From: Sinohyriopsis cumingii
Lineage: Eukaryota > Mollusca > Bivalvia > Unionida > Unionidae
Length of the DNA: 64,000 bases
Assembly: GCA_028554795.2 (NCBI GenBank)
Contig: CM068826.1
Location: forward strand, 105,500,602-105,564,601
Direction: 5' to 3'
A program made the translations under genes and the position numbers. Shown here in pieces: positions 38,376-57,823 of the stretch (its first letter is position 1; every line of letters begins with the position of its first letter). The notes below the pieces were generated by a model. The model ran no database searches. It saw nothing but the letters and a program-made list of their open reading frames with translations, and was not told the DNA's origin.

Positions 38376-38381
38376 GCTTTA

Positions 38382-38771
38382 AGTAGTAAAGTGGGATACT
38401 ATAGCCTCAATGGGAATTAGCATTACAGACCCCCCTTGGGAACATATAGCCTCAATGGAAATTTAACATGGAGAAAAATCGTGGGAACATATAGCCTCAA
38501 GGGAATTTAACATGGAGAAAAATCGTGGGAACATATAGCCTCAAGGGAATTTAACATGGAGAAAAATCGTGGGACGATATAGCCTCAAGAGGAATTGAAC
38601 ATGGGAATAGGGACTGTATAGCGTCAAAGGAATTTAAACAGGGTGGGACTGTATAGCGTCAAGGGAAATTGAACATGGGATTTTTTTTTTTTAAATTTAA
38701 AAAAAAGGGGTAGGCAATTGAAAGTCATTCTCTTTTCGAGAAATGTGGGTGGCCCTGAAAAGGGCCTTTGG
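38382..38771 (+). repeat. Polinton left terminal inverted repeat
   Basis: 390 bp, pairing with 57779-58168. It contains six to seven imperfect tandem units of 34-45 bp built on gggaacatatagcctcaagg followed by aatttaacatgg, then an A/T homopolymer region and the histone-type stem-loop used by the first minus-strand gene. The inner boundary falls just after the stem-loop. Confidence 0.95.
38729..38771 (-). terminator. Histone-type mRNA 3' stem-loop 1 (inside left TIR)
   Basis: The minus strand reads CCAAAGGCCCTTTTCAGGGC, completing the stem with C, then ACCCACA and TCTCGAAAAGAGAATGAC. This is a 6-bp stem with a TTTC loop and the CCAAA/ACCCA flanks of metazoan replication-dependent histone mRNAs. 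A purine-rich block sits where the U7-binding downstream element lies. The stem begins 51 nt after the stop of the gene at 38818-39360. Confidence 0.85.
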
Positions 38772-38817
38772 CTTTCTTCTATTTCCTCCATTTTCTCAAC
38801 CAGCCCCTAATCTTTCC

Positions 38818-39360
38818 TCAAATTCCTTTGTTCTTCTTCTTTTCATTTTCCGGTATCCAGTCCGGGTGACCCATGGCTCGGAACTTCTGTTGGATTTTTA
38901 TCCAGTTATTGTTCAGTCTCTCATATTCTTCTTTTTTCTTTCTATTCTCTTCTTCTTTTCTATCTTTTGCCCATCTGTCCTTAATTTTCTGCACTTCTTC
39001 CTCTATTATCTTTTTCATCTTTTCTTCCGCTTTCTTTAGTTGTTCACTGCCCCTTTTCACAAACTTCCACTCTGACCATTTCTCTAGCTCTTCTAAATAA
39101 CATCTCACTGCTTTTACCTTGTCCATAGACTCTTTTATTGTCCCCACTCTTACATACTCTGGTTGAATCAATCCTCTCAATCTCTTAACTTCTTCCTCTA
39201 TCATCTCCTCTATCATCTTCCTGGCTAATTTCAGTTCATTGACATAGTCAAGACTTTTTCTCAATCTCCATTCTCTTTCTATCCTTTCAATAGTATATTC
39301 TCCATCCATCATCCAAAAGTAAACATTTCTTAAATCATTAAACAACGCCGACACTTCCAT
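38818..39360 (-). CDS. Polinton terminal gene 1: coiled-coil protein, unknown function
   Basis: 180 residues, with no recognisable domain and no membrane segment. The sequence is highly charged and predicted helical by eye. It contains an internal duplication: the segment at about residues 25-65 (KLARKMIEEMIEEEVKRLR) is echoed at about 88-128 (LKKAEEKMKKIIEEEVQKIK). The gene at 40619-40984 has one copy of the same unit (IEELFREEVNREKEEW), so the two are probably paralogues. The ATG at 39360 follows a TATA-like ttcgtataaga (39410-39420) and a conserved promoter motif 63 nt upstream. The mRNA appears to end at a histone-type stem-loop within the TIR rather than at a poly(A) signal. The frame is open. 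The function is unknown. Confidence 0.75.
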   Translation of the reverse strand: MEVSALFNDLRNVYFWMMDGEYTIERIEREWRLRKSLDYVNELKLARKMIEEMIEEEVKRLRGLIQPEYVRVGTIKESMDKVKAVRCYLEELEKWSEWKFVKRGSEQLKKAEEKMKKIIEEEVQKIKDRWAKDRKEEENRKKKEEYERLNNNWIKIQQKFRAMGHPDWIPENEKKKNKGI

Positions 39361-39422
39361 CTTGTATCTGTTATTCCGTAGAATGGTGCGAACGACGAAC
39401 GTTGTGGGGTCTTATACGAAAA

Positions 39423-39515
39423 GCGCAGACGTGAAGGAAAACATCCCCCTAAGACATAAAATTGATATTACCTAGTTCATCACTTAAAACGCGCGGACGT
39501 GAAGGAAAACATCCC
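39423..39515 (-). promoter_or_regulatory. Promoter motif of terminal gene 1 (two copies)
   Basis: Plus-strand GACGTGAAGGAAAACATCCC occurs twice, within 39423-39447 and 39491-39515, each preceded by gcgc. The inner copy ends 63 nt from the ATG, with a TATA-like site in between. The same motif lies 64 and 67 nt upstream of the next two genes. Confidence 0.6.
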
Positions 39516-39579
39516 ATAGTTTCTCATTTCATATAATAAAATCCTAACTATACTCTTCACACACGCTAAGAAACAATAA

Positions 39580-39721
39580 ACGAACCCATAATCTACTATT
39601 CACACAAACTTACGTGAGCTTTTACAAACACAAACACATACACATACACTCACACTATGAAAAAAAGAGTTAGTGTTTATATTCACACTACTCTACCTAC
39701 ACACATTGGCAAATTGATGGT
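39580..39721. repeat. Spacer duplication, copy 1
   Basis: The sequence cacatacactcacactatga through ctacctacacacattggcaa and on into the stem-loop at 39722 is repeated nearly exactly at about 40420-40551. Together with the shared promoter motif this shows that gene cassettes were copied in tandem. Confidence 0.8.
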
Positions 39722-39766
39722 TATTTCTTTTCTAGAGTATTGGGTAGCCCTGAAAAGGGCTGTTTT
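39722..39766 (-). terminator. Histone-type mRNA 3' stem-loop 2
   Basis: The minus strand reads AGCCCTTTTCAGGGCT, ACCC, then CTAGAAAAGAAAT as the purine-rich element. The 6-bp stem and TTTC loop are kept, with A-T as the first pair instead of G-C. The stem begins 32 nt after the stop of the gene at 39794-40108. Confidence 0.8.
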
Positions 39767-39793
39767 TTTTTTTTGAACTTCATGGACACCTGG

Positions 39794-40108
39794 TTAATGA
39801 TGGCACCTTCCAGGCCTGGCGCCACATACACATCTTGTTCTCCAGTTGCTTTTTACTTTTCTTGGGGAGAGAGCAGAGGCGGGATAAATAGCTTCAGAAT
39901 CCCAATTTTCTGTCTCTGGGATTCTGAAATTTCTTCTCTCCTCTTCCTCTTCTTTGTATCTTCTCTCCTCTTCTTTGTTTCTTCTTTCCTCCTCCTCTCT
40001 CATCCTTCCCTCTTCGACAATGGCTTCCGCGGGCAGTTCGTTCAACAGGCGCCTGGAATATTCCAGATGTACATGAAGTTCCAACAGTTTCGCTAGTCTG
40101 GTGTTCAT
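39794..40108 (-). CDS. Polinton terminal gene 2: small charged protein, unknown function
   Basis: 104 residues from the ATG at 40108 (MNTRLAKLLELHVHLEYSRR). I chose this start because the frame extends to 40159 only through a non-ATG codon, and because the promoter motif then lies 64 nt upstream, as in genes 1 and 3. The N-terminal helix (LAKLLE-HV-L) resembles that of gene 3 (LAKLNEAYVNLHRVRHS). A Glu/Arg block (EEERRNKEEERRYKEEEE) follows, and the Cys/His-containing C-terminus reads CVCGARPGRCHH. No known domain was recognised. Confidence 0.65.
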   Translation of the reverse strand: MNTRLAKLLELHVHLEYSRRLLNELPAEAIVEEGRMREEEERRNKEEERRYKEEEEERRNFRIPETENWDSEAIYPASALSPRKVKSNWRTRCVCGARPGRCHH

Positions 40109-40171
40109 TCTGGTGTTGATCAATGAACAAGGGTAGCTGGACTGCCGAACGAGTTTCAATTAATACTAAAA

Positions 40172-40262
40172 GTGCGGACGTGAAGGAAAAGATCCCCCTA
40201 AAAACATAAAATTGATCTTACCTAGATCATGACCAAAAAACAACGCGCGGACCTAAAAGAAA
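40172..40262 (-). promoter_or_regulatory. Promoter motif of terminal gene 2
   Basis: Plus-strand GACGTGAAGGAAAAGATCCC lies within 40172-40196, with a diverged partial copy (gcgcggacctaaaagaaac) near 40244-40262. The surrounding sequence (ccctaaaaacataaaattga) also matches the gene 1 upstream region, so the whole promoter block is duplicated. Confidence 0.6.
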
Positions 40263-40419
40263 CACTCACTCACTTTTTTATACTACCCATCACTATTCTA
40301 AAAAAATCTTTTTCATTAATCACTTCAATATACTATTCACATACGCAAAGCAATCCAATCAAACCCCCAAATCTACTCTCCCTACACCTCAAACAGCCAA
40401 ACAAAATACATGATCTTAA

Positions 40420-40551
40420 TCTACTATCCATACCAACGTACGTGAGCTGTTACAAACACAAACACACAAACACATACACTCGCACTATTAAAAAAAAGAA
40501 TTAGTGTTTATATTCACACTACTCTACCTACACACATTGGCAAATTGATGG
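40420..40551. repeat. Spacer duplication, copy 2
   Basis: Near-identical to about 39580-39721. Shared phrases include ttagtgtttatattcacact, actctacctacacacattgg and caaattgatggtcatttctt. Confidence 0.8.
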
Positions 40552-40599
40552 TCATTTCTTTTCTAGAGTATTGGGGTAGCCCTGAAAAGGGCTGTTTTT
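40552..40599 (-). terminator. Histone-type mRNA 3' stem-loop 3
   Basis: The minus strand reads AGCCCTTTTCAGGGCT, ACCCC, then CTAGAAAAGAAATGAC. The stem starts 25 nt after the stop of the gene ending at 40619. It is nearly identical to stem-loop 2, in keeping with cassette duplication. Confidence 0.8.
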
Positions 40600-40618
40600 T
40601 GTTTGCTATGGCAATCTT

Positions 40619-40984
40619 TTAGTTTCTAAGAATGCGATGTCCTCTGAGGATAGACTTTCTGGAGATAGGTCTGCTTCTTCGGAAAGAGAAGAAGAACTCT
40701 TTGGTGTCGATACGACAATCGACAAAGCCTCTGTCAGGTTCAGGTTGCTGCTGCTGCTGTTGTTGTTGTTGTTGTTGTTGTTCCTGCTGTCTCTGAAGTC
40801 TGTACTTCTCTGTCCATTCTTCTTTCTCCCTGTTCACTTCTTCTCTGAAGAGCTCTTCTATCAGGTCTTCAGTGACTTTTAGCATTCTCACATTCTCTAT
40901 CTCTTCTGGCTTCGGTATCACACTGTGTCTGACCCTATGCAAATTCACGTAGGCTTCGTTTAGCTTAGCTAGTTTGGAGCACAT
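40619..40984 (-). CDS. Polinton terminal gene 3: poly-Gln coiled-coil protein, unknown function
   Basis: 121 residues from the ATG at 40984 (MCSKLAKLNEAYVNLHRVRH). The frame could start at 41113, but that extension would translate the promoter motif, so I prefer the downstream ATG. A helical segment (VTEDLIEELFREEVNREKEE) is related to the unit duplicated in gene 1. It is followed by an uninterrupted run of about 12 Gln and a basic Ser/Arg tail. The poly-Gln is encoded largely by CAA and CAG and may vary in length. The product has no recognised domain. Confidence 0.7.
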   Translation of the reverse strand: MCSKLAKLNEAYVNLHRVRHSVIPKPEEIENVRMLKVTEDLIEELFREEVNREKEEWTEKYRLQRQQEQQQQQQQQQQQQPEPDRGFVDCRIDTKEFFFSFRRSRPISRKSILRGHRILRN

Positions 40985-41038
40985 CTTCGTAGGATGACGA
41001 GTCGACAATGGATGGTTAGACTGGAAACTGCCCCGGTT

Positions 41039-41075
41039 CTTAAAGTCAAAGCGCGGACGTGAAGGAAAACATCCC
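41039..41075 (-). promoter_or_regulatory. Promoter motif and TATA-like site of terminal gene 3
   Basis: Plus-strand GACGTGAAGGAAAACATCCC lies within 41051-41075, 67 nt from the ATG at 40984. Next to it, on the gene side, is ctttaaga (minus strand), a weak TATA-like site about 55 nt from the ATG. Confidence 0.55.
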
Positions 41076-41202
41076 TCCACGGTTTTCGAGTCGCAACGTT
41101 CAATGAGTATCATGAGAGGGATAGTAAGAAGTTAAAGAGCATGAATCAACATTCTTATAGCCAAACAAAAGACAAAGGCATTTGTTTCAAAACACAACAT
41201 TT

Positions 41203-41208
41203 TTTATT
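41203..41208 (-). terminator. Poly(A) signal AATAAA
   Basis: AATAAA on the minus strand in an A/T-rich region about 130 nt after the protease gene. It is the first such signal after the structural gene group and probably ends the transcripts from 49.1 to 41.3 kb. Confidence 0.6.
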
Positions 41209-41335
41209 CAAAAATCACTTAACACTAACCAACAACTCTAACATTTTTAACAATAATCCAACAATATAACATCAAACAATTTTTCAAATCTCTAACAATT
41301 TTTTCAAATCACAAACATTTTTTTCAATTTACACT

Positions 41336-41896
41336 CTACTTTAAACAGGGCTGACAACGTTGTGAATGAAATTGTGATTTCCACTGTTGGAAATCATTAG
41401 GCCATTGATGGACACTACGTTTCCTAGCTTGAGACAAAAGATAAGCATAATGGTCACAAAACCATAGATCTACTTTCACATCGTTTCTAGAAGATGAAGG
41501 AGGATCAAAATGAGTCACTAAATGTTCTAAGGAATAGCCCAGGCTGCGATGATGCAGAAAATACACACAATATTGTCCACACACCAAGGAATCTGTGCCT
41601 TATAATTTCACATTATTGAATCGGGTGGTCTGAGCATTTCTTCTCATAAAGTCGATGATATCGTCTTCCAAAGGGGGCAATCCGTACGAATCGAAATATT
41701 CCACACATCCTTCTTGAGGAAAGTAAACGGCTACCCAGTGGGTTCCTGGGAGATGACTGTCGTCCGTGTTGATCACGTAAGCTAGATGGTCTTGAGGTTT
41801 GCGATGAGGGAGTTCATCTTTAGCACAGACGACAGGATTCCAAGAAGACGTATACGAACTGTGGTTCAAAAGGTAATAAAGTTCCCAGGTATCCAT
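41336..41896 (-). pseudogene. Adenovirus-type cysteine protease (PRO), broken
   Basis: Recognisable by HLPGTHWVAVYF and the following EYFDSYGLPP, the His and acidic catalytic segments of the adenain/Ulp1-like protease of Polintons and adenoviruses. A CGQYCVYFL segment with the nucleophile-type Cys lies nearer the 3' end. In the family this enzyme matures capsid precursors. The ATG at 41896 comes 20 nt after the stop of the upstream gene. The region is interrupted, so the copy is broken. Confidence 0.8.
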
Positions 41897-41916
41897 TTGT
41901 GTTGTTTTTTTCTTCT

Positions 41917-42399
41917 TCACAGGTAATAATAAGTCATCAATTCGATCCTGACTTTTTGCTTGAAAATGTCTGACAAATAACCGTTTCTTCGTTTCGTCTC
42001 CTCACTTTGATTCAGGAGAGCTTCGATGCGATCGATCTCTTGAGTGGTTAATGTTGGACAAGAATGTTCACGCAAGTCTTTATACCACTGGTGCAACACG
42101 TCTTCGTCCGAGATGAGACTCCAAGCATCGTCCAGATACTCGTCCAATTTTTCTTCTTGACTCAGCATCAGGCATTTATCGTGTTGAATTTGACTGGGAT
42201 GATCGTTTTGACATCCATAGCAATCTTTCTTGATCAATTCCGTCATTTTTTCGACCAAGTGTTTGGCAAAACAGGAGACTAAATGGTCTTTTTGTTCTGG
42301 CCATCTTGACTTCATCATGATAACTTCTTTTTCCATGGTCTCCTCACATTTCATCTCCAAAGTTTCTCCACTAGGTAAAGAGGGATAACAGTCTTCCAT
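41917..42399 (-). CDS. Conserved Polinton protein with C-x2-C...H-x4-C motif
   Basis: 160 residues and an open frame. The central segment CYGCQNDHPSQIQHDKCLM has a Cys-x2-Cys-x2-Asp-His-Pro-Ser-Gln...Cys pattern that I recognise from other animal Polinton proteins of unknown function, where it may bind zinc. The flanks are acidic and helical. It sits between the capsid and protease genes with very short gaps, so it is probably expressed with the structural group. No enzymatic role can be read from the sequence. Confidence 0.65.
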   Translation of the reverse strand: MEDCYPSLPSGETLEMKCEETMEKEVIMMKSRWPEQKDHLVSCFAKHLVEKMTELIKKDCYGCQNDHPSQIQHDKCLMLSQEEKLDEYLDDAWSLISDEDVLHQWYKDLREHSCPTLTTQEIDRIEALLNQSEETKRRNGYLSDIFKQKVRIELMTYYYL

Positions 42400-42404
42400 A
42401 GCTT

Positions 42405-43336
42405 CTAATAGTCTAGAATGACTTCTCTCAAACTGTTGATTTCTATGGTATTATCGAATTCTGCATACAGGATGACGTTCACCGTGTCTGGTAGAGCATT
42501 AGTAAACTGAAGTTCCACACGAATCTGGCCGGATTTTATAGGGTAGAAATGTCCCTCGTCGCTGCCTTGGTCTGGAGTGAAATCGAAAGCCCACAAGCAT
42601 AACCTCCTGCGTAATCGTCGTACGTAATGCCGTGACTGTTGTTGGTCCCTAATTGTCCAGTGGCTTCATACAGGGACAAGTACGATCTCAAGTAATTCTT
42701 CTTGGTAAAGTCAGGTTCGAAAGGTCGGGTACACAAGGTCTTGCCATCGCGACTGACTTCGATCTTGGACACGTCAAAGTGTCGAAAGTGGAAAGGATTT
42801 TCAGCGAAAGCTCCGTTGAAGGCTGAATTCTCGACCATACCAAGGATTAAACGTTTGGGTAACTGTCCTTGAAACAGATGATCTTCGATCATGGATCGCT
42901 GTCCCTTGGGAATGGTGAAGGTTTTCACTTCCACGCGACGGATCGGATACTTGGCGGTCGTTCTGCTCAACGTCTGACTGATGTCGTTTCCCACTTTGGG
43001 TAACACTTCCACGCGTCGTACGTAGAGTTTGGCCTCCTCGATTTTGCTTTTAGGAGTGTCAGCAGCAGTATCAGCCAACAAATGGAAAGCGGCACTGCTG
43101 CGATTCAGTCTCAAGCGAACATTTACCCCGTTCAGCAAATATTTCTCTTGCAACCACATGTCCAAATGCAAACAATCCATCAGTTTGATTTTGAACTCGA
43201 TGGGAGCGGAATCCGTCAAAGAGTACACGGGGTGAAATTCCACCCATTGGGATTCTTGCATCGTCATCATCGTGGGGGGCATGGCAAACAGGTCCAGTTC
43301 CGTCTTGGAACAAGCGCAAGATTCTCGGTGCATCAT
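42405..43336 (-). pseudogene. Major capsid protein (double jelly roll), broken
   Basis: Diagnostic segments include HFRHFDVSKIEVSRDGKTLC, RSYLSLYEATGQLGT and GITYDDYAGGY, the C-terminal jelly-roll signature of the Polinton major capsid protein. Upstream are the N-terminal strands (WVEFHPVYSLTDSAPIEFKI). The ATG at 43336 lies 15 nt after the stop of the preceding basic-protein gene; the longer frame to 43354 begins at a non-ATG codon. The length fits a somewhat short family member. The region is interrupted. Confidence 0.85.
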
Positions 43337-43350
43337 TTTTTCTCTGTGTC

Positions 43351-43776
43351 TCAATAATCGAAAACGTCTAAGTCTCGAACGGTTCTTCTTTTCTTTGTCT
43401 TTCTCGCTTTAGACGTGTGAAGTCTGGTGAAAGGGTGTTTTCTTCGTCGTCTCTTTCTGCCTTGTCCTTGCTGAATGCCTGACTCGGTAGCGTGCAGGGC
43501 ATTTATAGGTGTTTCTCGGCGACCCAAAATGTCTTTGCCCGTTTGCAGCAAGACATTTTTGCTAGCCCTCATGAAGGCTTCTTTAGGGTTTTGTTTGTCG
43601 ATGATGACATTTTGGAGAAATTCTTTGCCTTGCGTCAGTGCCGCATCTTTCAAGGCGTGCAATCCGCGTGTCACCATCGGTTTCAACACCGGGGCCACCG
43701 AACGAAAGGCCGATTTTAACATATCTCCTAAACCGTGTCCTCGCTGTCGAGCAACCCCTCGGTACACTGGATACAT
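43351..43776 (-). CDS. Basic virion protein, adenovirus pX/pVI-like
   Basis: 141 residues, open. It begins MYPVYRGVARQRGHGLGDML, with a Gly-rich stretch that looks like an adenain cleavage region, followed by an amphipathic helix (LKSAFRSVAPVLKPMVTRGL). The C-terminus is very basic (GRKRRRRKHPF, KARKTKKRR). Polintons and adintoviruses usually carry a protein of this type between the two capsid genes. By analogy with adenovirus pVI/pX it may line the virion interior or bind DNA. The assignment rests on composition, position and the N-terminal motif. Confidence 0.7.
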   Translation of the reverse strand: MYPVYRGVARQRGHGLGDMLKSAFRSVAPVLKPMVTRGLHALKDAALTQGKEFLQNVIIDKQNPKEAFMRASKNVLLQTGKDILGRRETPINALHATESGIQQGQGRKRRRRKHPFTRLHTSKARKTKKRRTVRDLDVFDY

Positions 43777-43779
43777 GAC

Positions 43780-44706
43780 TTACGAATCGTGAGAGAACAG
43801 TTTTCGAAAATGGAGTTTCACCGTGACTTTTCCTTTGGTGAATGGAATATTTTGTCCCAAATCTCCTTTTATAGTAATGTTGACCGTGTCCAAATACGAT
43901 TTGCTGACAGGCAAATAGTGAGGATGTACAAATTCGCGGTGGACGTGATAAGTGTTTCCACCTTCCTCGTCAGCGATCGTGGCAGAATCCACTTTGAAAG
44001 GAATGACACGCAGTAACGGCACAGAGGTGTGTCCCACCACGTTGTACTCCACCACATCGGAATACACGAAGATCAAATTCAGTCCTTGGTTCAGTTCTAC
44101 CGGGGTACGAAATAACTTGATAAAAGAATCGTTGTCGTAAATGATTGGTAATTCGTTTTTCTTCATCATGGCCATTCTCATGTTCATGTCTCCGCCCAAC
44201 ATGTCAAACAATTCAGGACAAAATAAAATGGACAGGATTTTACTCCCGTCAAATCTCATCGAGAAGCGACGAGCTGCTTTGTGGTATTCCATGGTGACAC
44301 TTTTTCTGACACTCTCCAAAGCTTTAAGAAACAAGCTATTAAACCTGGTGGCTATGGTGCTGACCAAATGTTGACCACTAAAATAATAGCCTGGGAAAAT
44401 GAACAAGTGGTAGGTAAAATTTTGATTTTGTGTACGGGTTTTCTTGTCATATTTGACATTCTTATCCAAGTACTCTTGCACTTGCTCGTCATGAACTTCC
44501 ACATCAAAAAAAGTTTGATTGGGAAGGACATTGAGGACTTGGGTCGGGTGAATGATTTCCACTAAAGCCACTTCCCAATGGGCTTCGTGATCTAAGGGGA
44601 TGGCCTGAGGTAATTTGGCCGTGTAACAGCACGACGTGTTGTGGGGAAACACCTCCATGGAACTGTCACTGGGTAAGGTTAAGTAAAATTGGTTTTGGTG
44701 ACTCAT
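43780..44706 (-). CDS. Minor capsid (penton-like) protein, F54H12.2-like
   Basis: 308 residues with an open, full-length frame. The N-terminus FYLTLPSDSSMEVFPHNTSC and the C-terminus VHPHYLPVSKSYLDTVNI followed by GKVTVKLHFRK are the hallmarks of the family annotated in animals as F54H12.2-like. It is the Polinton minor capsid, or penton, single-jelly-roll protein. WEVALVEIIHP early in the protein also matches the family. It would occupy vertices of the predicted icosahedral shell. The gene abuts the downstream basic-protein gene (3-nt gap) and the upstream membrane-protein gene (4-nt overlap), as expected for a packed structural operon-like block. Confidence 0.85.
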   Translation of the reverse strand: MSHQNQFYLTLPSDSSMEVFPHNTSCCYTAKLPQAIPLDHEAHWEVALVEIIHPTQVLNVLPNQTFFDVEVHDEQVQEYLDKNVKYDKKTRTQNQNFTYHLFIFPGYYFSGQHLVSTIATRFNSLFLKALESVRKSVTMEYHKAARRFSMRFDGSKILSILFCPELFDMLGGDMNMRMAMMKKNELPIIYDNDSFIKLFRTPVELNQGLNLIFVYSDVVEYNVVGHTSVPLLRVIPFKVDSATIADEEGGNTYHVHREFVHPHYLPVSKSYLDTVNITIKGDLGQNIPFTKGKVTVKLHFRKLFSHDS

Positions 44707-45113
44707 AATTCCAGAGTTCTGTGGCTGTCCGAGGGGTTACTGGACGTCAGAGGCGTGTCTCCGCCCAAAATGGGGTTCTGCTTGTTCTTGGAGTGGTGAC
44801 TGGCACTGGCACTGGACACAAGGTTCCCGTGGTTCCCGTTCGATGAGAATTTCAAGGAGGGATTGGGAAGCAGGTAACCGATGCAACTGCTCAATAAAAT
44901 GGTCCACAATTGTTTGTCTCCTTGTTGCAAACTCAAATTGGCGATGGCTGCCCCGATGACACAATACACCACGAAGATTTGGCAGAAAAAGACGATTTGC
45001 GTTTTAGGCACACGTTCTCCGCACCACACCCACAAGGGTTGTTTTTGTAAATCTTGCACAGAAGAACTGGGTGAAGGAGTGGTCGACGTAACTGCGTCTG
45101 TGTGAAAAGGCAT
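44703..45113 (-). CDS. Conserved Polinton two-helix membrane protein
   Basis: 136 residues from the ATG at 45113; the frame extends to 45122 only by a GTG codon. A proline/serine-rich N-terminus is followed by two hydrophobic segments, IVFFCQIFVVYCVIGAAIAN and LWTILLSSCIGYLLP, then NPSLK and a Ser-rich tail. The sequence VPKTQIVFFCQI...IGYLLPNPSLK is characteristic of a small membrane protein found beside the penton gene in many animal Polintons. The role is unknown; a virion membrane or assembly factor is possible. A TATA-like cgactataaaaa (45126-45137) lies just upstream. Confidence 0.75.
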   Translation of the reverse strand: MPFHTDAVTSTTPSPSSSVQDLQKQPLWVWCGERVPKTQIVFFCQIFVVYCVIGAAIANLSLQQGDKQLWTILLSSCIGYLLPNPSLKFSSNGNHGNLVSSASASHHSKNKQNPILGGDTPLTSSNPSDSHRTLEL

Positions 45114-45119
45114 AATGGT

Positions 45120-46233
45120 CACTTCTTTTTATAGTCGATGACTTGCGAAGCGTCGATCCAAGAATCAAAACTGGGTGGATATCCTATCCTTTCCAACGTA
45201 CTTTGACTTCTTTGACACGTCGTTTGCCCACTTTACGGGTTCTGCGTTCGAGAATGCTTTCGATGTCGTACACGTCGTCTTCTTTTTTGGTGACACGTTG
45301 TAACTCGGGCAAATAAAACGTTCCTTTGAGCACTTCTTCGTTCATGTCTTCCAATTTATAGACGGCAGGATGACGACCATGCACTCGTCCAGTGATGCCA
45401 AATAATTCGGTCGTCCAGTTAGGTAAGTAACCTTTGTCGAAAGTGCGTTTGGTTTTACCAATGCGCACCCAATCTCCTACGGCCAACTCTCCACTTTTCT
45501 TGGGGACAGCAATCGTCGGGGACGTACCAAACAGGCGCTCAAACACCAACACTTCGTTGTCGGGAGTCACGTCTTGCGAGGCACGTCCGATGCTTCGATG
45601 GTAAGATTGGTTGTACGCTTGCACCAGGTGCGGTAAGATGTCGATGTACTTCAGAGTGTGGTGATGCGTAAAATATTTCCACATGCGTTCTTTCAAAGTG
45701 CGTTGAAAACGTTCCACGATGCTGGCTTTGGTTTCGGGATTCTCGGTGGTAAAAAAATGAATGTCACGTTTCTTTAATTCTTTTTGGAAAGCTTGGTTCA
45801 GAAATTAGGTACCTTTGTCCGTTTGCCATCGAAGAGGGTGACGACCGCTTTGTTTCAACACCCGTTGCAGGGCTCGCACTAACTCGCTGCTCGATTTGGA
45901 AGTCAAGGGTACGACCCAGGCAAATTTGGAAAAGACGTCGATGACACAAAACAAATATTTGTAGCCGCGATTGTAGCTGGCGAAATGAGAGACATCGGCT
46001 AAATCGGCTTGCCATTGATGATCGATGCCTTCCACTCGGGTGCGACTTCTGGCAAACTTGCGTCGAATGGGTTTGTGTAAAGTGTAGGTAGCTTGTTCTT
46101 GTAACCATCGTTGCACTTGAGGTAAACGGAGACTTTTCAGTCGAGTTTTGGTAGCACGATACAATTTTTGAACTCCTGCGTAACCTGCAGGATGGGAGGG
46201 ATCGTAGTAAATGCTGGCTAAGACTTTTTCCAT
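45120..46233 (-). pseudogene. Retroviral-type integrase with chromodomain-like tail, broken
   Basis: The rve-fold core is recognisable by WQADLADVSHFASYNRGYKY (first Asp), LFCVIDVFSKFAWVVPL, RWQTDKGT (second Asp) and the helix with YNQSYHRSIG. The N-terminal segment YYDPSHPAGYAGVQKLYRAT is typical of Polinton integrases. Near the C-terminus RKVGKRRVKEVKVRWKG looks like the start of a chromodomain, which in related integrases steers insertion toward certain chromatin. Translation probably starts at the ATG at 46233, 16 nt after the upstream stop. The region is interrupted. Confidence 0.88.
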
Positions 46234-49913: not shown

Positions 49914-50003
49914 GGCAGCCTGATTTTATAGTCTCTTTGTTTCGGAAGCAATAAAGGTAATTTCTAACTAGACATGTTCGTTCTCCAGTAGGGAATTTAA
50001 ATG

Positions 50004-50610: not shown

Positions 50611-50622
50611 GAATAGGTCATA

Positions 50623-51077: not shown

Positions 51078-51099
51078 GAACAGATTATGGTAAGTTACT

Positions 51100-51738
51100 T
51101 CAATGTCTCAGTCCCACTAAGGGTAAGTAATGACAATTCGGTGACCATCGAGCATGTTCTACGTAGGCCGAATCTTGCGGTTCCCAGTGGTGAAGTGACA
51201 CACCGCAACTGAAGCACTTGACTTTATCTCCTTCGCCCAAGTAGAAAAATCCGGCTCTGGCTAATTCTTCGGGGGTCGGTCCTCCCAGACACTTAGGCCA
51301 TTTTCCTTTGAACGATTGAAGACGATTTTCAAAGTCGCAGTATTCCGACAAACGCACAGGAAACGAATATTCGTCTTTCACAGGTTCGTTTCGATGAGGG
51401 TTGGGTGACATGAACAGGAGTTTGCTCAGGGCTGGATGACATCCGTAGGGGGGTAGACGTGAAGGTGAACATTCCCCTTTAAAACGAAACCCAGTAAAAT
51501 GTCCAAGAGGACGAGCGGCATCACTTTCGCATCCCTCAGGCTTGACACGCACAGCATCACTTTCCATGATAGGGGTAGTGACACTAAAGTTCCCATGATG
51601 CTTTACGGCATCGCTAAGGTCACAACGCACAGCATCGTACCCATCGCAAGGCTCACAATCGCATTCCACTTCAGAAGCCTCACACTTGAATTGTGCCTTT
51701 CTAAACAACTTGTTTTGTGTTTCTCTGAAAGTATTCAT
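51100..51738 (-). CDS. BIR-domain (IAP-like) protein
   Basis: 212 residues, open from the ATG at 51738. Residues about 139-205 form a complete BIR zinc fold: RLQSFKGKWPKC at the start, then GFFYLGEGDKVKCFSCGVSL, with zinc ligands C175, C178, H195 and C202 in the exact C-x2-C-x16-H-x6-C spacing. BIR proteins of the IAP family bind caspases or related partners and block cell death; baculoviruses and other large viruses carry them. There is no RING. The N-terminal half holds short DAV/DAA repeats with many Cys and may be a later addition; an alternative ATG at 51411 would give a compact BIR-only protein of about 103 residues. A TATA box lies at 51794-51805. Anti-apoptotic function is an inference. 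Confidence 0.85.
   Translation of the reverse strand: MNTFRETQNKLFRKAQFKCEASEVECDCEPCDGYDAVRCDLSDAVKHHGNFSVTTPIMESDAVRVKPEGCESDAARPLGHFTGFRFKGECSPSRLPPYGCHPALSKLLFMSPNPHRNEPVKDEYSFPVRLSEYCDFENRLQSFKGKWPKCLGGPTPEELARAGFFYLGEGDKVKCFSCGVSLHHWEPQDSAYVEHARWSPNCHYLPLVGLRH
51452..51476 (-). promoter_or_regulatory. Diverged copy of the terminal-gene promoter motif
   Basis: Plus-strand GACGTGAAGGTGAACATTCC matches the motif of genes 1-3 at most positions and lies 41 nt before the alternative BIR start at 51411. It could be an internal promoter, or it could be coding sequence that matches by descent or chance. Confidence 0.35.
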
Positions 51739-51793
51739 CTTGTTCGCTTGGTCTTGGTAGTCACAATGAACTATCGATCTTACCTAGGGGTTC

Positions 51794-51805
51794 CTTTTTA
51801 TATAC
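51794..51805 (-). promoter_or_regulatory. TATA box of the BIR gene
   Basis: gtatataaaaag on the minus strand, about 56 nt upstream of the ATG at 51738, in the short gap after the polymerase gene. Confidence 0.6.
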
Positions 51806-51831
51806 AGACCAATAACGACGTGTCCATACGG

Positions 51832-54800
51832 TCAGGTGAAATGATTGGGAAGTCGAACTCGCTTCTGGTACACGATTTGATAGACTTTTTCCAAGGGCCG
51901 ACTGACGATGTGGTGAGTGGGTAAACGTACAATCTTGTTAGGTTGATAGGTGGTCACTTTAAAGTTTCCATCCTCTCCCGATTGCAAGGCTTCTTTAAAT
52001 ACTCCAAAGTTGACCACACGACTGGTACGATGATTCAGAGTCAGTCCTTTCCATTTGCACGTCATGTGCACTTCTCCTTGTGGGTCCCGGTATTCGTAGC
52101 CGTAATTTTTGGGACCGCCACTGACGAAACTTAGAATCTTGTCGTCGGGATGCTTGTCTGTCCAGGCTCCTAAACGGTCTCCTTCGATGTCAGGGTGCTG
52201 TTGACTCGGGTGATGGATGTAAATGCAACTGTCCGTGTCAAAGTACAGGACGCGTTCCCCTAACAGTTCTAAAGCTTCGTACAATTTTAAGCGAGCATGA
52301 GCTGTCACGTAAGCCGCAATGATGACATTTCCAAAAGGGTCGTCTTGTACAAAGTCCAGATCTTCTTCGTAATTGACCAAGATCAAATCCTCTCGAACGA
52401 CGTCCACGTGTTTCATGAGTTTGGTTTTGTCGTGAATCATCTGGAAGTAGCGGGAAGGTTCTGTCAAATATTCCGTCTTGGGTAAACACGGTCGTTGTGC
52501 CATTTTACCCCACAAGCAGTTTAACATCACTTTGGCAAACGATCGCCTGCCTTCGTTTTTCTCGATGTGGTCTAAAGAGATGCCTTCTTGTTCATAGTAT
52601 TTCCCTTTGAATTGTATTTGGTCTTCGGGAGTGTGACACCAGGAAGGATAGCCGCTGGCTTCTTGTTTCAGTTTCAAAAAGGCATCCACGTAGTCAGCGA
52701 AAATGCCTTTCTCACTGGGATCACCCTTGTGGTATTGTTGTGTCTTGGGAAAGTGGCAAATTTCGTACACTTCTAACAGTTCGTATCCCATGTCCAGAGC
52801 TTTGAACAATTCTACGCTGACCCAGGTTCCCGTCAAGGCCCCTTCTTCCTGGGTGTGCTGACAAGGTTGGTCTTGGTTGCACGTTTCGGCACAAGTACAG
52901 CACAATGGAAACATCAGTTTGCCTTGACAATGGTGAGGTAACACGGGATGATACAAGTCCGTGGGAGGCAAAACTTTACACTTGATCAAGCCTTCGTATT
53001 GTCGAATGTTTTTCAGGTCGATGTGTTCCGTGAACAATTGCGGGTGCCCTACAGGAAAGCGACAATATTTGCACACGTAGGGATACAGCGAACACACGTC
53101 CAAGTATTTGATTTCTTCTCCTTTCTCTTCGTCGGCTTGGTACAGCAAACAGGTGGCATTGGTCCTTCCTCCGTACAAACTATCCCTCCGGTTCAGTGGG
53201 TCCATGAACTGGTAACTTTCCACGAGGCGTTTAAACTCGGGATCGGTTTTCATACGGTGATCGTACTCGTGTTCCCACATTTCCACCACTTGGTATCCTT
53301 GCTGTTCTAACTTTAGGCGTCGCTGACAAGTGTCCTGGTACAAGGCTTCCATGGTTCGTTGTAAAAACTGATTTTTAGTGTCGCGGTCAGTGTAACAGAC
53401 GGGACATCCGTGAAATAAGCAACCGTTAAACTTGTATACGATCTTGGGTTTTCTAAGTCCCAGCCATCTACCGAATACGTTCCGATGGTCTTTTCACCCC
53501 CTCCGTTGCGAGCATGCTGAATCCACTTGTCTTTCTTGTCGCACAAGTAATTTAACCAACGTAGGGCTTTGACCGAGTATTGACGTTTGACATAGTGGGT
53601 CGTTTGAGGACTGATGACAGCTACGGTGTTTTCAGGCATGAATCGTTGCCGGTACACTAAGGAACACGCTTTGGCAATGGTGCAAGCTTCTTTCAAATGA
53701 TCGACCCCTCCGTGTTCCATGAACAGTTCTCGAAATTTTCCACAGCAACGCCGTAAAATGTCCACGTCGGAACGACAATACTTTAACATTTCTTCCTGAA
53801 AGTCGAAAGGGTCCGAGGCGTGAGCCTGGTACCAAGCGTAGAAAGCTTCTCGTTGTTCGGTACGCATGTTGTCGGGGTCGTAATAGTGAGCCTCAGGTAA
53901 ATGGGGTAGAACGGCGTGTTGATTGGCTTCCGTATTGAAAAAGTGTGCAAAGTACCCTTTAGCCATTTCTGTCATTCCAAACGTTTTATGCATTCAGCTC
54001 AAAGGCATGGCCAAATAGCTCATCGAATCTTTAAACTGTACTTGTCCCACTTGCATGAAAATGATTTTGGCTTCGTTCAAAGTCACTTTAGGACGCTCGG
54101 TGCCTTGTTCCGTATAGTATCTCAAAAGTAACTGTCCATCGTATCCGGAAAAATTGTGAGCCATCACCGTGGCATGACGATGACAATCTCCGTAACGTTC
54201 GATGTCCTCTTGGCTCCACGTCTTGTCGATGGGGTCTAAAACCCATTGGGCAAAATCGGCTAACGTGTTCGGTCCTCGACAATTTTTTTCACGCCCTCCA
54301 GGAATCTTGCTGCAGTGAGGGCAATGACTGAAAATAGGTTCTTGAATGCACTTCTCGCACGCTCAATGAGCCACGCAGAAATTAGGAATGTGAATGCCGG
54401 TCTCTTGCATGCACTCGAAATCGAAAAAGATGAAGTTGCCTTTCTTCTTGTGACCGTCCTCTTTCTCTGGTGGGGGTTGGTATTTTTGCCCGTAGCATTG
54501 GTGTTCCAAGTCCACGATGTGGTGAGAAATGTGACATTTTTTCTTTCCTCGACATACGTGTGCCTTGGCATTATTGGTAAGTATGCCTTGTCCACAGGTA
54601 GGGCACAATCTCAGGAGTTGACAAGCACATTTCTGCTGTGAACCTTGCGTCTTCAGATGTTGTTGGTAACAGGTAGGGCTGACAAACGTGCGCAGACAAG
54701 TTGAACAAGGCACTGGTCCTTCGCTCAGACAGGGTGGAGAGGCCAAACATCCTGAGCATTTCAATCCGCAATGTTTGTGTTGCTCTCGATTATTATAACC

Positions 54801-55832
54801 ATGGTCACATTTCTCACAGTAATAACCGTATCCCAGGAATCCAGTGGTGCTGGTAATGGTATCGAAATGGTCATCGTGATAATAGACATGAATGTATTTT
54901 CCGTCCTTAAAGTCTTGGCCTCGAAACAACAGAGGTCCGCGCACTTCTTGAGGGTGCACTTTCAAGGTGTAGCGTGGAGCTAGGGCATCTTGCAATTTTT
55001 GCATCACAGGAATGCCACAGGGTGTGTCTTTGGATAGGTCAGCTTGTTGCATCAGGAGTTCTGCTTCGTTTCGTTGTTTGGCTCGGTGCAATTGTCGAAT
55101 AGTTTTCCAGGCTCTTTTCCATTCTGTCGTGTCGTTCTTGTTCGCATAGGTTCGTCCCACCACGATGGCTCGGGCTAAACACATCTGGTCTTGAGGGTTG
55201 TGACTTTGGACGAGGCTACGCTTAATGCTGCGAAGCTCGTTCACCAATAACATCTTTTTGCGTCCGGTCCCTTGAGGAGAAGAGACGTGAGTCATATCCA
55301 GTGTGGCTTTTCCATCGGTGATGTCAAACTGGTCATTGGATTGTTGCACGTGTTGAATCTTGTCCATGACTTTGGAAGCGGTCAATTCTGCAGGGGTGCT
55401 AAACTCGATCCAAACAGGGGATTTCAAACCGTCGTGTTGTATGGAAAGTCTCAAGCGATCGTGTTCTTTGGGTTGACATTGTCGCTTGAGTGCGGTGAGC
55501 AAAGAATCCCACAACCCAGTGATGAACCCTTCTGCTTTCTCTAACGGTACTTCAGCCTTGAAATCTTTAAACTTCACCGTGTATTTGTAAGCCGTGGTTC
55601 TAAATTTTCTAGAGGAGCGCTTTTCCGTCTCTCGAATGGAATAGCATTTTTCAGGGTTGACTAAGGGTGGTGAACTTGGTTTAGAGGGATCGGATTCTGG
55701 TTCACTCATGTCCTCTTCAAAATCACTGGCATGAATTTGTGCCAAGACTTCAGCTCTGGTACGAGGCGATAGATCACGTTTCTGCCTCTTACTTTCTTCT
55801 TCTTTCTTCTCGAATGAATAGGATCGTTTCAT
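51832..55832 (-). pseudogene. Protein-primed family B DNA polymerase (pPolB), broken
   Basis: The 4-kb region encodes the Polinton polymerase. The N-terminal part (from the ATG at 55832) has a long charged segment and several Cys/His-rich zinc-binding patches (CEKCDHGYNNREQHKHCGLK, CPTCGQGI). The 3'-5' exonuclease motif FIFFDFEC lies near 54.4 kb. The polymerase palm is marked by YLDVCSLYPYV near 53.1 kb, KVMLNCLWGKM near 52.5 kb and YFDTDSCIY near 52.2 kb, matching motifs A, B and C. In the family this enzyme replicates the element using a terminal-protein primer. The start lies about 50 nt after a TATA box in a divergent promoter. The region is interrupted in more than one place. Confidence 0.93.
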
Positions 55833-55966
55833 CTTGAGTGAAAAACGTCAAATGACTCAAGTTTAAACACCATGGACTAATTTATAGACATGGCAGACCA
55901 GCGTATATAAAAGGGTGTGTGTCTTGTTCTTTCACTATTCATTTCACTCTCTAACCGAGCACAACG
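55833..55966. promoter_or_regulatory. Divergent promoter between polymerase and zinc-knuckle genes
   Basis: On the plus strand GTATATAAAAGGG (55903-55914) lies about 55 nt before the ATG at 55967. On the minus strand GTCTATAAATT (55880-55889) lies about 50 nt before the polymerase ATG. The two TATA boxes are about 20 bp apart and face away from each other. Confidence 0.75.
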
Positions 55967-56425
55967 ATGGAAGAGTCTAGCCAAATCGAACGTTTCATCA
56001 GAGCTTTGCGAGGGGTCATTAGAAAATTCTCTTCAGACCAGCCCACGGACTACTCTCCTTCCTTTCGAGATAAAAGTCAAGATACTTGCTATATCTGTCA
56101 GAAGAAAGGGCATTGGTCTTCAGAGTGTCCAGACCGTCACAAAAGAAAAAAGGGGCTAAAAAAGACAGAAGTCAAGATACCTGTTATTATTATCAAGAAA
56201 AAGGACATTGGACTCCAGATTGCCCAAAAAAGAAACAAGAGGAGTCAGAAGAAAAGAGGGATTCTTCAGAAGAAGAGAGGGATTCTTCAGAGGAAGAGAG
56301 GGATTCTTCAGAGGAAGAAGAGGAAGAAAGAAGACAATTCTATTTACAAGAGGCAAAGAAAAAGAAACAGGAGAAGAAAAGAAGAAGGGAAGAAAGTTAG
56401 GAGGAAGAAGAGGAAAAGACGGTGA
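55967..56425 (+). pseudogene. Zinc-knuckle protein with charged tail, probably broken
   Basis: One of two plus-strand genes in the element. It begins MEESSQIERFIRALRGVIRK, a short helical N-terminus, and then has a good CCHC knuckle (CYICQKKGHWSSEC) at about residues 41-54, the nucleic-acid-binding motif of retroviral nucleocapsid and CNBP-like proteins. A related knuckle-like sequence and a 5-fold Asp/Ser/Glu or Lys/Arg repeat tract follow, so the tail is highly charged in any frame. The intended frame of the tail is uncertain. AATAAA at 56533-56538 can end its mRNA. Confidence 0.6.
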
Positions 56426-56532
56426 AGAAATTGAAAAAACAGAGAGAGTAAACAAGGAGACAGAAGAAGTTAATGAACTTTTTAAAGTGTTCTGTTGTGA
56501 ATTGTGAATTGGATTGTAACAATGGATAAAAG

Positions 56533-56538
56533 AATAAA
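56533..56538 (+). terminator. Poly(A) signal AATAAA
   Basis: AATAAA on the plus strand about 110 nt after the zinc-knuckle frame, in an A/T-rich context. This plus-strand gene therefore seems to use normal polyadenylation, unlike the plus-strand gene at 57524. Confidence 0.55.
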
Positions 56539-56668
56539 TTAATTATATAAGGTAAGTGTCTTTGAGTTTTGATTTTAAAATAAGAACGTACACTCACGCA
56601 CTCATACACAGACACGTACTATAGGGGTAAAATGGGTTTTTTTTGAGTTATTGGCAAATGAAATTGTA

Positions 56669-56712
56669 TCTCTTTTCGAGAAATGTGGGTGGCCCTGAAA
56701 AGGGCCTTTCTT
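56669..56712 (-). terminator. Histone-type mRNA 3' stem-loop 4
   Basis: The minus strand reads AAAGGCCCTTTTCAGGGCCA, then CCCACA and TCTCGAAAAGAGAT. It is identical to the TIR stem-loop through the core but lies outside the TIR. The stem starts 22 nt after the stop of the gene at 56729-57304. Confidence 0.85.
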
Positions 56713-56728
56713 TGGTGTAGGGGTGAGT

Positions 56729-57304
56729 TTAAGCAATCAACTTTAACTGTCTTAAGCCTTTGCCACGGCCAAGGCCTACTTCTGGACTGCGTAATGTTGA
56801 TGATGATGATGATTGGGTTGAAATCACTAAGGGTGGTACGGTAGGCTTAGTCACAGGGTTGACGTGTTTAGCTCGGGAAGGTCGTATTCTCTTCGGTCGT
56901 AATAAAGAAGTCTGATACATTTGTTTCAGACTCCTTAACTCCGCTAAAATGTCCAACAGTACCGTGACCGTTTGATTTTCACCCTCTTGTTTCTTTGCTG
57001 CTACTTCTTGTTGTTGTTGTTTTTTTTTTCTTACCTCTTCTTCTTGCTGCTGTTGCTGTAGGATAAAAGCTTGTTCCGCTTCCTTTTGTCGTTGTATAAA
57101 TTTCTCCAATTCTTCTTTCTGTCTCTGTCTAAAATTCTCCACTTGCGGTAATGAAGAAGGTAACGCAGGTTCCGGAAGAAATTCTTGCGAAGTAAGAAAA
57201 TCCACAAAATCCCAATTTACCTCTTCTGAAAGTAAGTCCGGGTTCCCTTGGGCGGTCTCCCCTGCTGGTGCACCCCAATGGATCGTTTTCTGAATTTCCG
57301 TCAT
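56729..57304 (-). CDS. Polinton terminal gene 4: Gln/Glu coiled-coil protein, unknown function
   Basis: 191 residues, open, from the ATG at 57304. An acidic N-terminus (MTEIQKTIHWGAPAGETAQG) is followed by a long Gln/Glu/Lys coiled coil (residues about 60-105, with poly-Gln runs). Then come a hydrophobic heptad segment (VTVLLDILAELRSLKQMYQT) and a basic Ser-rich tail with RPKRIRPSRAK. It shares with gene 3 the coiled-coil plus poly-Gln layout and with genes 1-3 and 5 the histone-type 3' end. No known domain was recognised. It diverges from the gene at 57524 across a shared promoter region. Confidence 0.75.
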   Translation of the reverse strand: MTEIQKTIHWGAPAGETAQGNPDLLSEEVNWDFVDFLTSQEFLPEPALPSSLPQVENFRQRQKEELEKFIQRQKEAEQAFILQQQQQEEEVRKKKQQQQEVAAKKQEGENQTVTVLLDILAELRSLKQMYQTSLLRPKRIRPSRAKHVNPVTKPTVPPLVISTQSSSSSTLRSPEVGLGRGKGLRQLKLIA

Positions 57305-57523
57305 GTTGAATCACTGTCGCATAGACAGACTGCACACAGGCGCTAGCGAATCTGTATAGACCACGTGACGTCACAAACTGCTCTCTTCGGATTGGATGCG
57401 GGCTAACTGAATTTTGTAACGCGTAATCGGATTGGTGAATGAACTCAATCCGTTTCAATTATTCCTCTACCTATAAATAAGCGCAGTTCACTGCATTGAT
57501 TCACCTGTTCTCGTCGCCTCACG
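57305..57523. promoter_or_regulatory. Divergent promoter with paired CCAAT boxes and CRE/E-box
   Basis: On the plus strand CTATAAATAAG (57471-57481) is a TATA box for the gene at 57524. A weaker TATA-like ggtctatacag lies at about 57352-57362 on the minus strand. Between them are two cggattgg sites (57390-57397 and 57427-57434), which are CCAAT boxes on the minus strand, and ccacgtgacgtcac (57361-57374) with an E-box and a CRE. Paired CCAAT boxes in a short divergent promoter are also typical of animal histone gene pairs. Confidence 0.6.
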
Positions 57524-57757
57524 ATGTGGACCACAGTCGAATCATGCACCCTTGTGTCTTCAATGATGTTTAGGACGGACATGCTCATGTATGTCCGGTC
57601 CAAGTGGACTGTTGTTGATAGGACAGATACTAGTCTATGGATGAGAAGAGTTTACATAGAAAGACAAGGATGTCTCAAGAGAGTACTTGTGTATGGACCT
57701 GCAGTTAGAAGGAGTTTAAGAAGAAGAAGAAGATGTGACAGATGCCATCTATGTTAA
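57524..57757 (+). CDS. Polinton terminal gene 5: small Arg-rich protein, unknown function
   Basis: 77 residues, open. The first half is Met/Thr/Val-rich without a clear hydrophobic segment. The C-terminus is strongly basic with paired Cys (RRSLRRRRRCDRCHLC), which could bind nucleic acid or zinc. The stop codon falls inside a 24-bp perfect palindrome, and a histone-type stem-loop follows 24 nt later, within the right TIR. The promoter is well formed, which supports expression in spite of the small size. No family was recognised. Confidence 0.6.
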   Translation: MWTTVESCTLVSSMMFRTDMLMYVRSKWTVVDRTDTSLWMRRVYIERQGCLKRVLVYGPAVRRSLRRRRRCDRCHLC

Positions 57758-57773
57758 TATTAATATTAACATA
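57750..57773. repeat. 24-bp perfect palindrome
   Basis: TATGTTAATATT followed by its exact complement AATATTAACATA. It overlaps the last codons and the stop of gene 5 and immediately precedes the histone-type stem-loop and the inner edge of the right TIR. Confidence 0.85.
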
Positions 57774-57775
57774 AA

Positions 57776-57823
57776 CCCAAAGGCCCTTTTCAGGGCCACC
57801 CACATTTCTCGAAAAGAGAATGA
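57776..57823 (+). terminator. Histone-type mRNA 3' stem-loop 5 (inside right TIR)
   Basis: The plus strand reads CCAAAGGCCCTTTTCAGGGC, then C, ACCCACA and TCTCGAAAAGAGAATGAC. This is the mirror copy of stem-loop 1, now used by the plus-strand gene 5. Both outermost genes of the element therefore end inside the TIRs with the same signal. Confidence 0.85.

Follow-up and report, generated by a model that had tools for sequence, protein, structure and literature searches.

To our knowledge, histone mRNAs are regarded as the only users of the route formed by the histone hairpin, SLBP and U7. Polintons are related to virophages, and the 3′ hairpins of mimivirus and virophages are variable in sequence and polyadenylated. 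The Polinton analyzed here has in common with these hairpin-marked 3′ ends a hairpin past the stop codon, whereas it has one near-fixed hairpin sequence and a downstream block. Five of its genes (A–E) share the hairpin, the AC flank, the U7-type downstream block and a short uninterrupted ORF with metazoan replication-dependent histone genes, and genes A, B and C also share an upstream element of the host H2B, H1 and H4 genes. Unlike histone genes, however, A–E encode non-histone products and are scattered through the genome, outside the histone repeat. No earlier report of Polinton genes with histone-gene 3′ ends or promoter elements was found among open-licence PMC papers.

The element lies in a 64-kb stretch of DNA, hereafter the window, and was analyzed together with its copies in the host genome. 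It shares with Polinton/Maverick elements and adintoviruses a 6-bp TSD (GCTTTA, at 38376-38381 and 58169-58174), long TIRs of ~390 nt that start with AG, a type B polymerase (PolB, PF03175), a retroviral-type rve integrase (PF00665) and an A32-type packaging ATPase (Pox_A32 match, E 1.5e-8), and on these features it belongs to Polinton/Maverick. The polymerase and the integrase are each broken into several ORFs in this copy. For the capsid proteins and the cysteine protease, suitably placed ORFs were present, and the Pfam search gave no match for them. In contrast to the known elements, small terminal genes here carry histone-gene 3′ ends, and three of them carry histone-gene promoter elements (Table 1).

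Table 1. Features of the Polinton and its terminal genes, in window coordinates (3′ end, hairpin plus downstream block)
Feature	Position	Strand	Description
Complete Polinton/Maverick element	38382..58168	.	19,787 bp; ends 5′-AG; TSD, TIRs, PolB, rve, A32-type ATPase
Left TIR	38382..38775	+	gene A hairpin at inner end
Gene A 3′ end	38726..38771	-	RF00032 40.8 bits, E 1.4e-8
Gene A	38818..39360	-	180 aa, charged, no family; no Pfam match over cut-off; dN/dS median 0.16, 4 copies
Proximal host-histone-type promoter element of A	39422..39445	-	2 mismatches to host H2B 24-mer
Distal host-histone-type promoter element of A	39490..39513	-	2 mismatches to host H2B 24-mer
Gene B 3′ end	39721..39766	-	RF00032 31.0 bits, E 6.4e-5, below gathering score; block CUCUAGAAAAGA, same as host H2B
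Gene B	39794..40108	-	104 aa; no Pfam match; dN/dS median 0.18, 7 copies
Host-histone-type promoter element of B	40171..40194	-	3 mismatches to host H2B 24-mer
Second element of B	40242..40262	-	21/21 nt identical to host H4 promoter (L062:2201-2221)
Gene C 3′ end	40553..40598	-	RF00032 29.8 bits, E 1.8e-4, below gathering score
Gene C	40619..40984	-	ORF open to 41113; start at 40984 inferred from promoter-element position
Host-histone-type promoter element of C	41050..41073	-	1 mismatch to host H2B 24-mer
Gene D 3′ end	56667..56711	-	RF00032 38.8 bits, E 7.7e-8
Gene D	56729..57304	-	191 aa; dN/dS median 0.45, 11 copies
Bidirectional D/E intergenic region	57305..57523	.	conserved TGACGTCA, two CCAAT-type boxes, TATAAATA
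Gene E	57524..57757	+	77 aa, basic C-terminus; dN/dS median 0.11, 17 copies
Right TIR	57773..58168	-	gene E hairpin at inner end
Gene E 3′ end	57777..57822	+	RF00032 40.8 bits, E 1.4e-8

The original prediction had placed histone-type hairpins behind five ORFs. All five were found where claimed, on the coding strand and 22-51 nt past the stop codons (51, 32, 25, 22 and 24 nt from stop codon to hairpin start for A, B, C, D and E). The whole window was scanned with the Histone3 model (RF00032, gathering score 34 bits) and with all of Rfam. The five sites matched above background level, belonging here to mobile-element genes that do not encode histones; the gathering score was reached at A, D and E and missed at B and C, where E was 6e-5 and 2e-4, and no further Histone3 match was listed at E up to 5 in the 64 kb. 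While all five hairpins are real, they amount to only about three independent instances, because 38726 and 57777 mark a single TIR-borne hairpin present twice, and a 114-nt duplication (87% identical) accounts for the pair at 39721 and 40553. The purine-rich block was present after ACCC, but its GAAAAG start lies 9-10 nt past ACCC, compared with the 8-12 nt first stated. The five products had been described as unlike histones, and indeed Pfam gave no histone match for any of them. Other genes of the element had been credited with AATAAA signals; this was true of four of the 24 ORFs examined (A itself and the 41600, 49372 and CCHC ORFs, within 600 nt downstream), with ATTAAA alone in two more, but most ORFs had no such signal. 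The polymerase, integrase and ATPase genes of this copy had neither a histone-type hairpin nor a histone promoter element.

The 3′ ends were compared with those of the host histone genes, whose products seem to resemble histones of molluscs or annelids. At the tandem locus L062, the H3, H4, H2B, H2A and H1 genes carry the same hairpin, 27-38 nt past the stop codon, followed by the block CUAGAAAAGA (H3, H4, H2B and H1) or CCGAAAAGG (H2A), and a host-type, U7-type block at the host's spacing was found behind the Polinton hairpins. RF00032 scores were 35.0-39.4 bits for the L062 genes and up to 45.6 bits for Polinton copies. The hairpin flank differed, being ACCC in the Polinton versus ACAC, AUAC, ACAA or ACUU in the L062 histones. 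The downstream blocks CUCGAAAAGAGA and CUCUAGAAAAGA are candidate pairing targets of U7.

The likeness extends to the 5′ side of A, B and C, which goes beyond the original prediction and makes the finding larger than reported. Upstream of these genes the host H2B 24-mer was matched four times at 1-3 mismatches against 0.00 expected, the word having been picked after the match was noticed; the same 24-mer is exact in five other loci (L002, L005, L006, L009 and L023). In contig C1 (first 6.43 Mb), the exact promoter pattern preceded 49/60 exact AGCCC-type hairpins by 412-501 nt on the strand of the hairpin, whereas on the opposite strand within 700 nt it accompanied 0/60. HINFP (HiNF-P) is a candidate for binding the ACGTCCGC element. 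HiNF-P activates histone genes according to PMC5706932 and PMC11208570, and PMC2880410 only cites it; a HiNF-P binding consensus for comparison was found neither in passages of the three papers nor in literature searches. The S-phase coupling proposed for the element gains independent support, at the sequence level, from the host histone promoter elements upstream of A, B and C. For D and E, the H2B/H1-type promoter element was absent at up to 5 mismatches in 20/20 right-end stretches. Their intergenic region was itself conserved, with at least 90% conservation at 81% of its positions across 37 sequences. A similarity of this region to host H3 came to two common 9-mers, which is near chance, and no claim is made.

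These genes, A–C at the left end and D–E at the right end, are probably expressed as histone-type units, with the 3′ likeness in all of them and the 5′ likeness in part; we put the probability of this reading at roughly 80%. The stronger version, that the transposon mimics histone genes at both unit ends and relies on the histone locus body machinery to transcribe and process its terminal genes, solely during host replication, we regard as evenly balanced between true and false. The dN/dS values indicate that ORFs A, B, D and E are under purifying selection, the lowest value among them being that of gene E; gene C had no full-length copy in the copy set. A structure model of the gene E product was of low confidence (pLDDT 44), and no reading rests on it. 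Polinton copies number in the thousands in the host genome, and ten thousand or more by our estimate, with 33,189 genome-wide occurrences of the hairpin pattern RGCCCTTTTCAGGGCYACCC and 33,738 of the exact promoter pattern. Such numbers would suit a decoy, abundant Polinton transcripts binding SLBP, U7 or histone transcription factors and disturbing the host histone supply. Since purifying selection acts on the ORF inside four of the five units, protein expression matters, and a decoy role would come on top of it; as the explanation of the hairpins we consider it improbable.

The position of the hairpins directly past stop codons, and the kinship of Polintons with virophages, would also fit generic viral terminators or hairpin polyadenylation marks of the mimivirus and virophage kind, whose histone likeness would come from shortness alone. 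However, the sequence matches the host histone hairpin and comes with the AC flank and a downstream block at the host's distance, the hairpin is confined to the five terminal genes, and three of these (A, B and C) have histone promoter elements as well, leaving this explanation a slim chance. The strict hairpin pattern had no match in viral_contigs. A looser pattern gave one match there (21.3 bits), apparently phage coding sequence and thus attributed to chance. PolB and the ATPase had no relatives in viral_contigs in a search that catches close relatives only, and in phage records PolB matches were distant only (6 records, Methanosarcina viruses and faecal phages).

Histone-type expression of the terminal genes was further examined by conservation. 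Twenty copies were picked by PolB, independently of the hairpin. The gene D hairpin was present in 17/17 stretches covering its site, with all six pairs kept, and the gene E hairpin in 19/19, of which 17 kept all six pairs and two had lost one; the expectation that related Polintons keep the hairpin is thus borne out among copies of this one genome. The test is limited by the close similarity of the 85 scored PolB copies (95-100% identity). At the B and C 3′ ends, the hairpin and downstream block showed a mean pairwise identity of 0.95, whereas the sequence upstream had 0.61-0.69 and the spacer 0.75-0.79; since a second block 60-100 nt past the hairpin also reached 0.95, this conservation is not specific to the hairpin. 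Compensatory changes (G-C to A-U, C-G to U-A) were seen in the hairpin alignment, and two of five measures were not clearly higher than in shuffles (46/500 and 458/500 shuffles as high). When the whole element was compared as 2-kb pieces with the host histone repeat by blastn, the matches listed at E up to 0.001 comprised all five 3′ ends, the promoter elements at 39422, 39490, 40242 and 41050 but not the fifth, a CAG-type microsatellite and nothing else. The 3′ ends and promoters could be fossils, once acquired from histone genes by recombination and now unused, as the identity to host elements over 21-24 nt in places might suggest. Yet the match is limited to short functional words, with no flanking histone DNA, and hairpin and block are kept amid changing surroundings and in every PolB-chosen copy covering the D and E sites, so that we give a fossil origin little credence. 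That the hairpin is a TIR DNA element for replication or integration, its histone likeness being incidental, is scarcely credible, as only two of the five lie at inner TIR ends while those of B, C and D are not within the TIRs but past stops on the coding strand, and the downstream block is kept.

Trans-acting partners were searched for in the host genome. RF00066 gave three U7 matches (29.3, 23.9 and 23.4 bits), all under the cut-off of 34 and unlike U7 genes on inspection. A pattern joining the complement of the downstream block to a U7-type Sm site occurred at 15 places, versus 5 for a reversed control; none of the 14 inspected was convincing, and the fifteenth shares its core with two of these. 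The most U7-like candidate (L092) is a decayed Polinton gene B 3′ end read in antisense, both L094 and L095 resemble integrase coding sequence, and the other inspected candidates had no convincing hairpin directly after the Sm-like site. Four candidates scanned with Rfam gave no match. A search of the host for SLBP found no match; for a spliced gene this outcome carries no information.

The proposal that the element uses the host histone 3′-end machinery is thus supported by sequence evidence, namely the same hairpin and block as in the host tandem histone genes, kept in copies, behind ORFs under purifying selection. Host SLBP and U7 snRNP would cleave A–E transcripts past the hairpin, and the resulting mRNAs would lack poly(A) and be stable and translated mainly during host DNA replication. 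Transcription of A, B and C would in addition be timed to S phase by the transcription factors of histone genes, perhaps within the histone locus body. If this is true, the histone route can be captured by unrelated genes of a mobile element, and a DNA element that replicates would have a direct reason for S-phase-coupled expression. It gives a handle on the expression timing of Polintons, which are mostly known as sequences, and the thousands of natural variants could serve to dissect recognition by SLBP and U7. At the estimated copy number, the histone expression route would be a shared and contested resource between host and element.

The original prediction of five histone-type hairpins held for position, as all five were found at the places described. 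Each follows the stop codon of one of five small terminal genes of a Polinton, A, B and C at the left end and D and E at the right end. The window was scanned with the Rfam Histone3 covariance model (RF00032), and all five sites matched, A, D and E above the gathering score of 34 bits and B and C below it. When all of Rfam was searched against the whole window, no sixth Histone3 site was listed at E values up to 5. Sites A and E represent a single sequence, present once in each TIR, and sites B and C lie inside a 114-nt repeat that is 87% identical. Because of this sharing, the five sites are real but amount to only about three independent instances. The element carries PolB (type B DNA polymerase), an integrase, an A32-type ATPase, a BIR-domain protein and a CCHC zinc knuckle ORF; PolB and the integrase of the window copy are each broken into several ORFs. 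BIR-domain proteins also occur in some insect DNA viruses.

Features of the Polinton and its surroundings in the window
Feature	Position	Strand	Remarks
Full Polinton	38382-58168		TSD GCTTTA on both sides; TIRs ~390 nt, starting AG
Site A hairpin	38726-38771	minus	Histone3 40.8 bits
Site B hairpin	39721-39766	minus	Histone3 31.0 bits, E 6.4e-5
Site C hairpin	40553-40598	minus	Histone3 29.8 bits, E 1.8e-4
Site D hairpin	56667-56711	minus	Histone3 38.8 bits
Site E hairpin	57777-57822	plus	Histone3 40.8 bits
GTAGGTAGAGTAGTGTGAATATAAACACT conserved block	~39661-39704, ~40493-40535	minus	3′ of B and C hairpins
Second promoter element of B	40242-40262		21 nt identical to host H4 promoter, L062:2201-2221
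BIR (inhibitor of apoptosis) domain protein	51100-51738	minus	PF00653, E 1.1e-23
Three related small ORFs or remnants	50004-51055	minus	Within Polinton, in tandem
TIR subrepeats	38412-38680, 57871-58168		Several, imperfect, ~44 nt each
562-aa ORF	24908-26596	plus	Outside Polinton; Cys-rich N-terminus; no Pfam match; may be a transposon-derived protein
Predicted tRNA-Pro (CGG)	15383-15455	plus	30.3 bits; possible gene or SINE head

The histone genes of the host (assembly size, 2.90 Gb) lie in tandem repeats with a unit of ~8.27-8.29 kb, and one unit at locus L062, containing H3, H4, H2B, H2A and H1, was used as the yardstick. Its hairpins begin 27-38 nt past the stop codon and scored 35.0-39.4 bits with RF00032; by comparison, sites A and E scored above all of them, D inside the range and B and C below. 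The hairpin flank is ACCC in the Polinton, whereas it is ACAC, AUAC, ACAA or ACUU in the L062 histone genes. The block downstream of the host hairpin is CUAGAAAAGA in H3, H4, H2B and H1 and CCGAAAAGG in H2A. That of Polinton genes B and C, CUCUAGAAAAGA, is the block of host H2B, and genes A, D and E have CUCGAAAAGAGA.

When the upstream regions of A-E and of the host histone genes were compared, histone promoter elements emerged upstream of Polinton genes, which the original prediction did not include. The element GATGTTTTCCATCACGTCCGCGCT lies upstream of host H2B, the same element with one change upstream of H1, and a reverse-orientation copy with 4 mismatches upstream of H2A. Four matches with 1-3 mismatches were found in the window (expected 0.00), all on the coding strand, two upstream of A and one each upstream of B and C; none was found at up to 6 mismatches at positions 41201-57200. 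In other copies (n = 8) the H2B-type element lies 59-71 nt ahead of the B start, and the exact host H2B 24-mer is present in five loci of the genome (L002, L005, L006, L009 and L023). The exact H4-type 21-nt element of B is also present in L002, L007 and L023. ACGTCCGC probably resembles the published site of HINFP, an activator of H4 genes. The right-end stretches, which hold genes D and E, had the H2B/H1-type element in 0 of 20 cases. Between D and E there is instead, in an alignment of 37 sequences, a conserved TGACGTCA together with a TATA box and two boxes of CCAAT type. When the entire Polinton was compared by open blastn, in 2-kb pieces, with the host histone repeat, the matches at a printed E ≤0.001 covered all five 3′ ends and four of the five promoter elements, missing the H2B-type element of B, and the sole other match was a CAG-type microsatellite.

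The median dN/dS was 0.16 for ORF A (4 copies, using 4 of 6 pairs), 0.18 for B (7 copies, 21 of 21), 0.45 for D (11 copies, 55 of 55) and 0.11 for E (17 copies, 124 of 136), indicating purifying selection on these four ORFs; the values for A, B and E are rough, their dS being close to 1 or higher. The calculation excluded pairs with dS ≤0.03 or not computable, as well as ORFs that spanned under 75-95% of the window's (cut-off by gene); gene C had zero full-length copies among the sequences taken. Among 14 gene-B/C 3′ ends, mean pairwise identity was 0.95 for the hairpin and 0.95 for the downstream block, 0.87 for the 5 nt preceding the hairpin, 0.75-0.79 for the spacer, 0.83 just past the block, 0.57 at 100-140 nt, and 0.61 and 0.69 in the upstream regions. 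The gene-D set (identity 0.82-0.97) is too alike for such contrast. The GTAGGTAGAGTAGTGTGAATATAAACACT block, 60-100 nt 3′ of the B/C hairpins, equals the hairpin in identity (0.95, n = 14). Covariation was measured in 19 aligned hairpins, some of them picked because they carried variants. A-U replaces G-C at pair 1, and U-A replaces C-G at pair 3, the second of these replacements being that of host H1. The fraction of pairing cells was 93.9% (3 of 500 shuffles as high) and the covariation score 0.176 (2 of 500); these 19 hairpins were not outstanding in how many pairs show double changes (46 of 500) or in how many further pair types occur (458 of 500).

The genome search with RF00032 gave 589,472 first-look candidates, among which 75 were scored, all above the gathering score. 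Relatives of genes A/B/C or D/E were present in each of the first 30 of these 75 loci (the other 45 were left out), and a second hairpin with ≤2 mismatches over 20 nt was found at another gene of the same 3-kb locus in 29 of them. Those 30 loci were selected by hairpin score; two samples were selected otherwise, namely the second hairpins just described and a PolB-chosen set. The PolB-chosen set consisted of one row in four of the PolB table (20 of 84 copies, the window's own excluded), with 1.5 kb each at the expected right-end position; L063 is without an element end, and L075 and L078 cover E only. The D hairpin was present in 17 of 17 covering stretches, 16 exact over 20 nt, with six pairs in all. 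The E hairpin was present in 19 of 19 at ≤2 mismatches, 4 of them matching exactly across 20 nt, with changes mostly within the ACCC flank and all six pairs kept in 17 (pairs were read by eye). All 85 scored PolB places of the genome were 95-100% identical to the window's, and 35 fell within open frames of 1,335-1,362 aa (counted by eye).

The exact hairpin pattern RGCCCTTTTCAGGGCYACCC occurs 33,189 times in the genome and the exact promoter pattern GATGTTTTCNNTCACGTCCGC 33,738 times, a count that includes the H2B and H1 copies of the histone repeats; both reversed-pattern controls gave 0. The 100 hairpin and 100 promoter matches that were listed span the initial 6.43 Mb of contig C1. Among these, 49 of 60 AGCCC-type hairpins were preceded on their own strand, at a distance of 412-501 nt, by the promoter pattern; on the opposite strand, 0 of 60 had it within 700 nt. 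For GGCCC-type hairpins the pattern was found in 0 of 40 within 700 nt upstream and 3 of 40 within 1,200 nt, and 31 of 40 had it on the same strand 12-22 kb downstream, which is the layout of the whole element. If the start of C1 is typical, extrapolation gives an estimate of ~14,000 Polintons in the genome. The Polinton expansion in this assembly is very large.

Histone 3′ processing by SLBP and U7 snRNP, S-phase histone transcription driven by NPAT and binding of H4 promoters by HiNF-P are described in one published account (PMC5706932). Judged from the sequence comparisons, the simplest account is that the host histone 3′-end machinery would process the transcripts of the terminal genes and that transcription of A, B and C would also be under histone-gene control. 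The original prediction knew of no published case, and none was found in the full texts of open-licence papers, a scope that excludes most subscription papers and preprints. In the window copy the core genes carry no histone-type signals, perhaps because it is A-E that act early and face the host. Use of the histone machinery would tie the expression of the terminal genes to host DNA replication, which could be used by an element that itself replicates and integrates.
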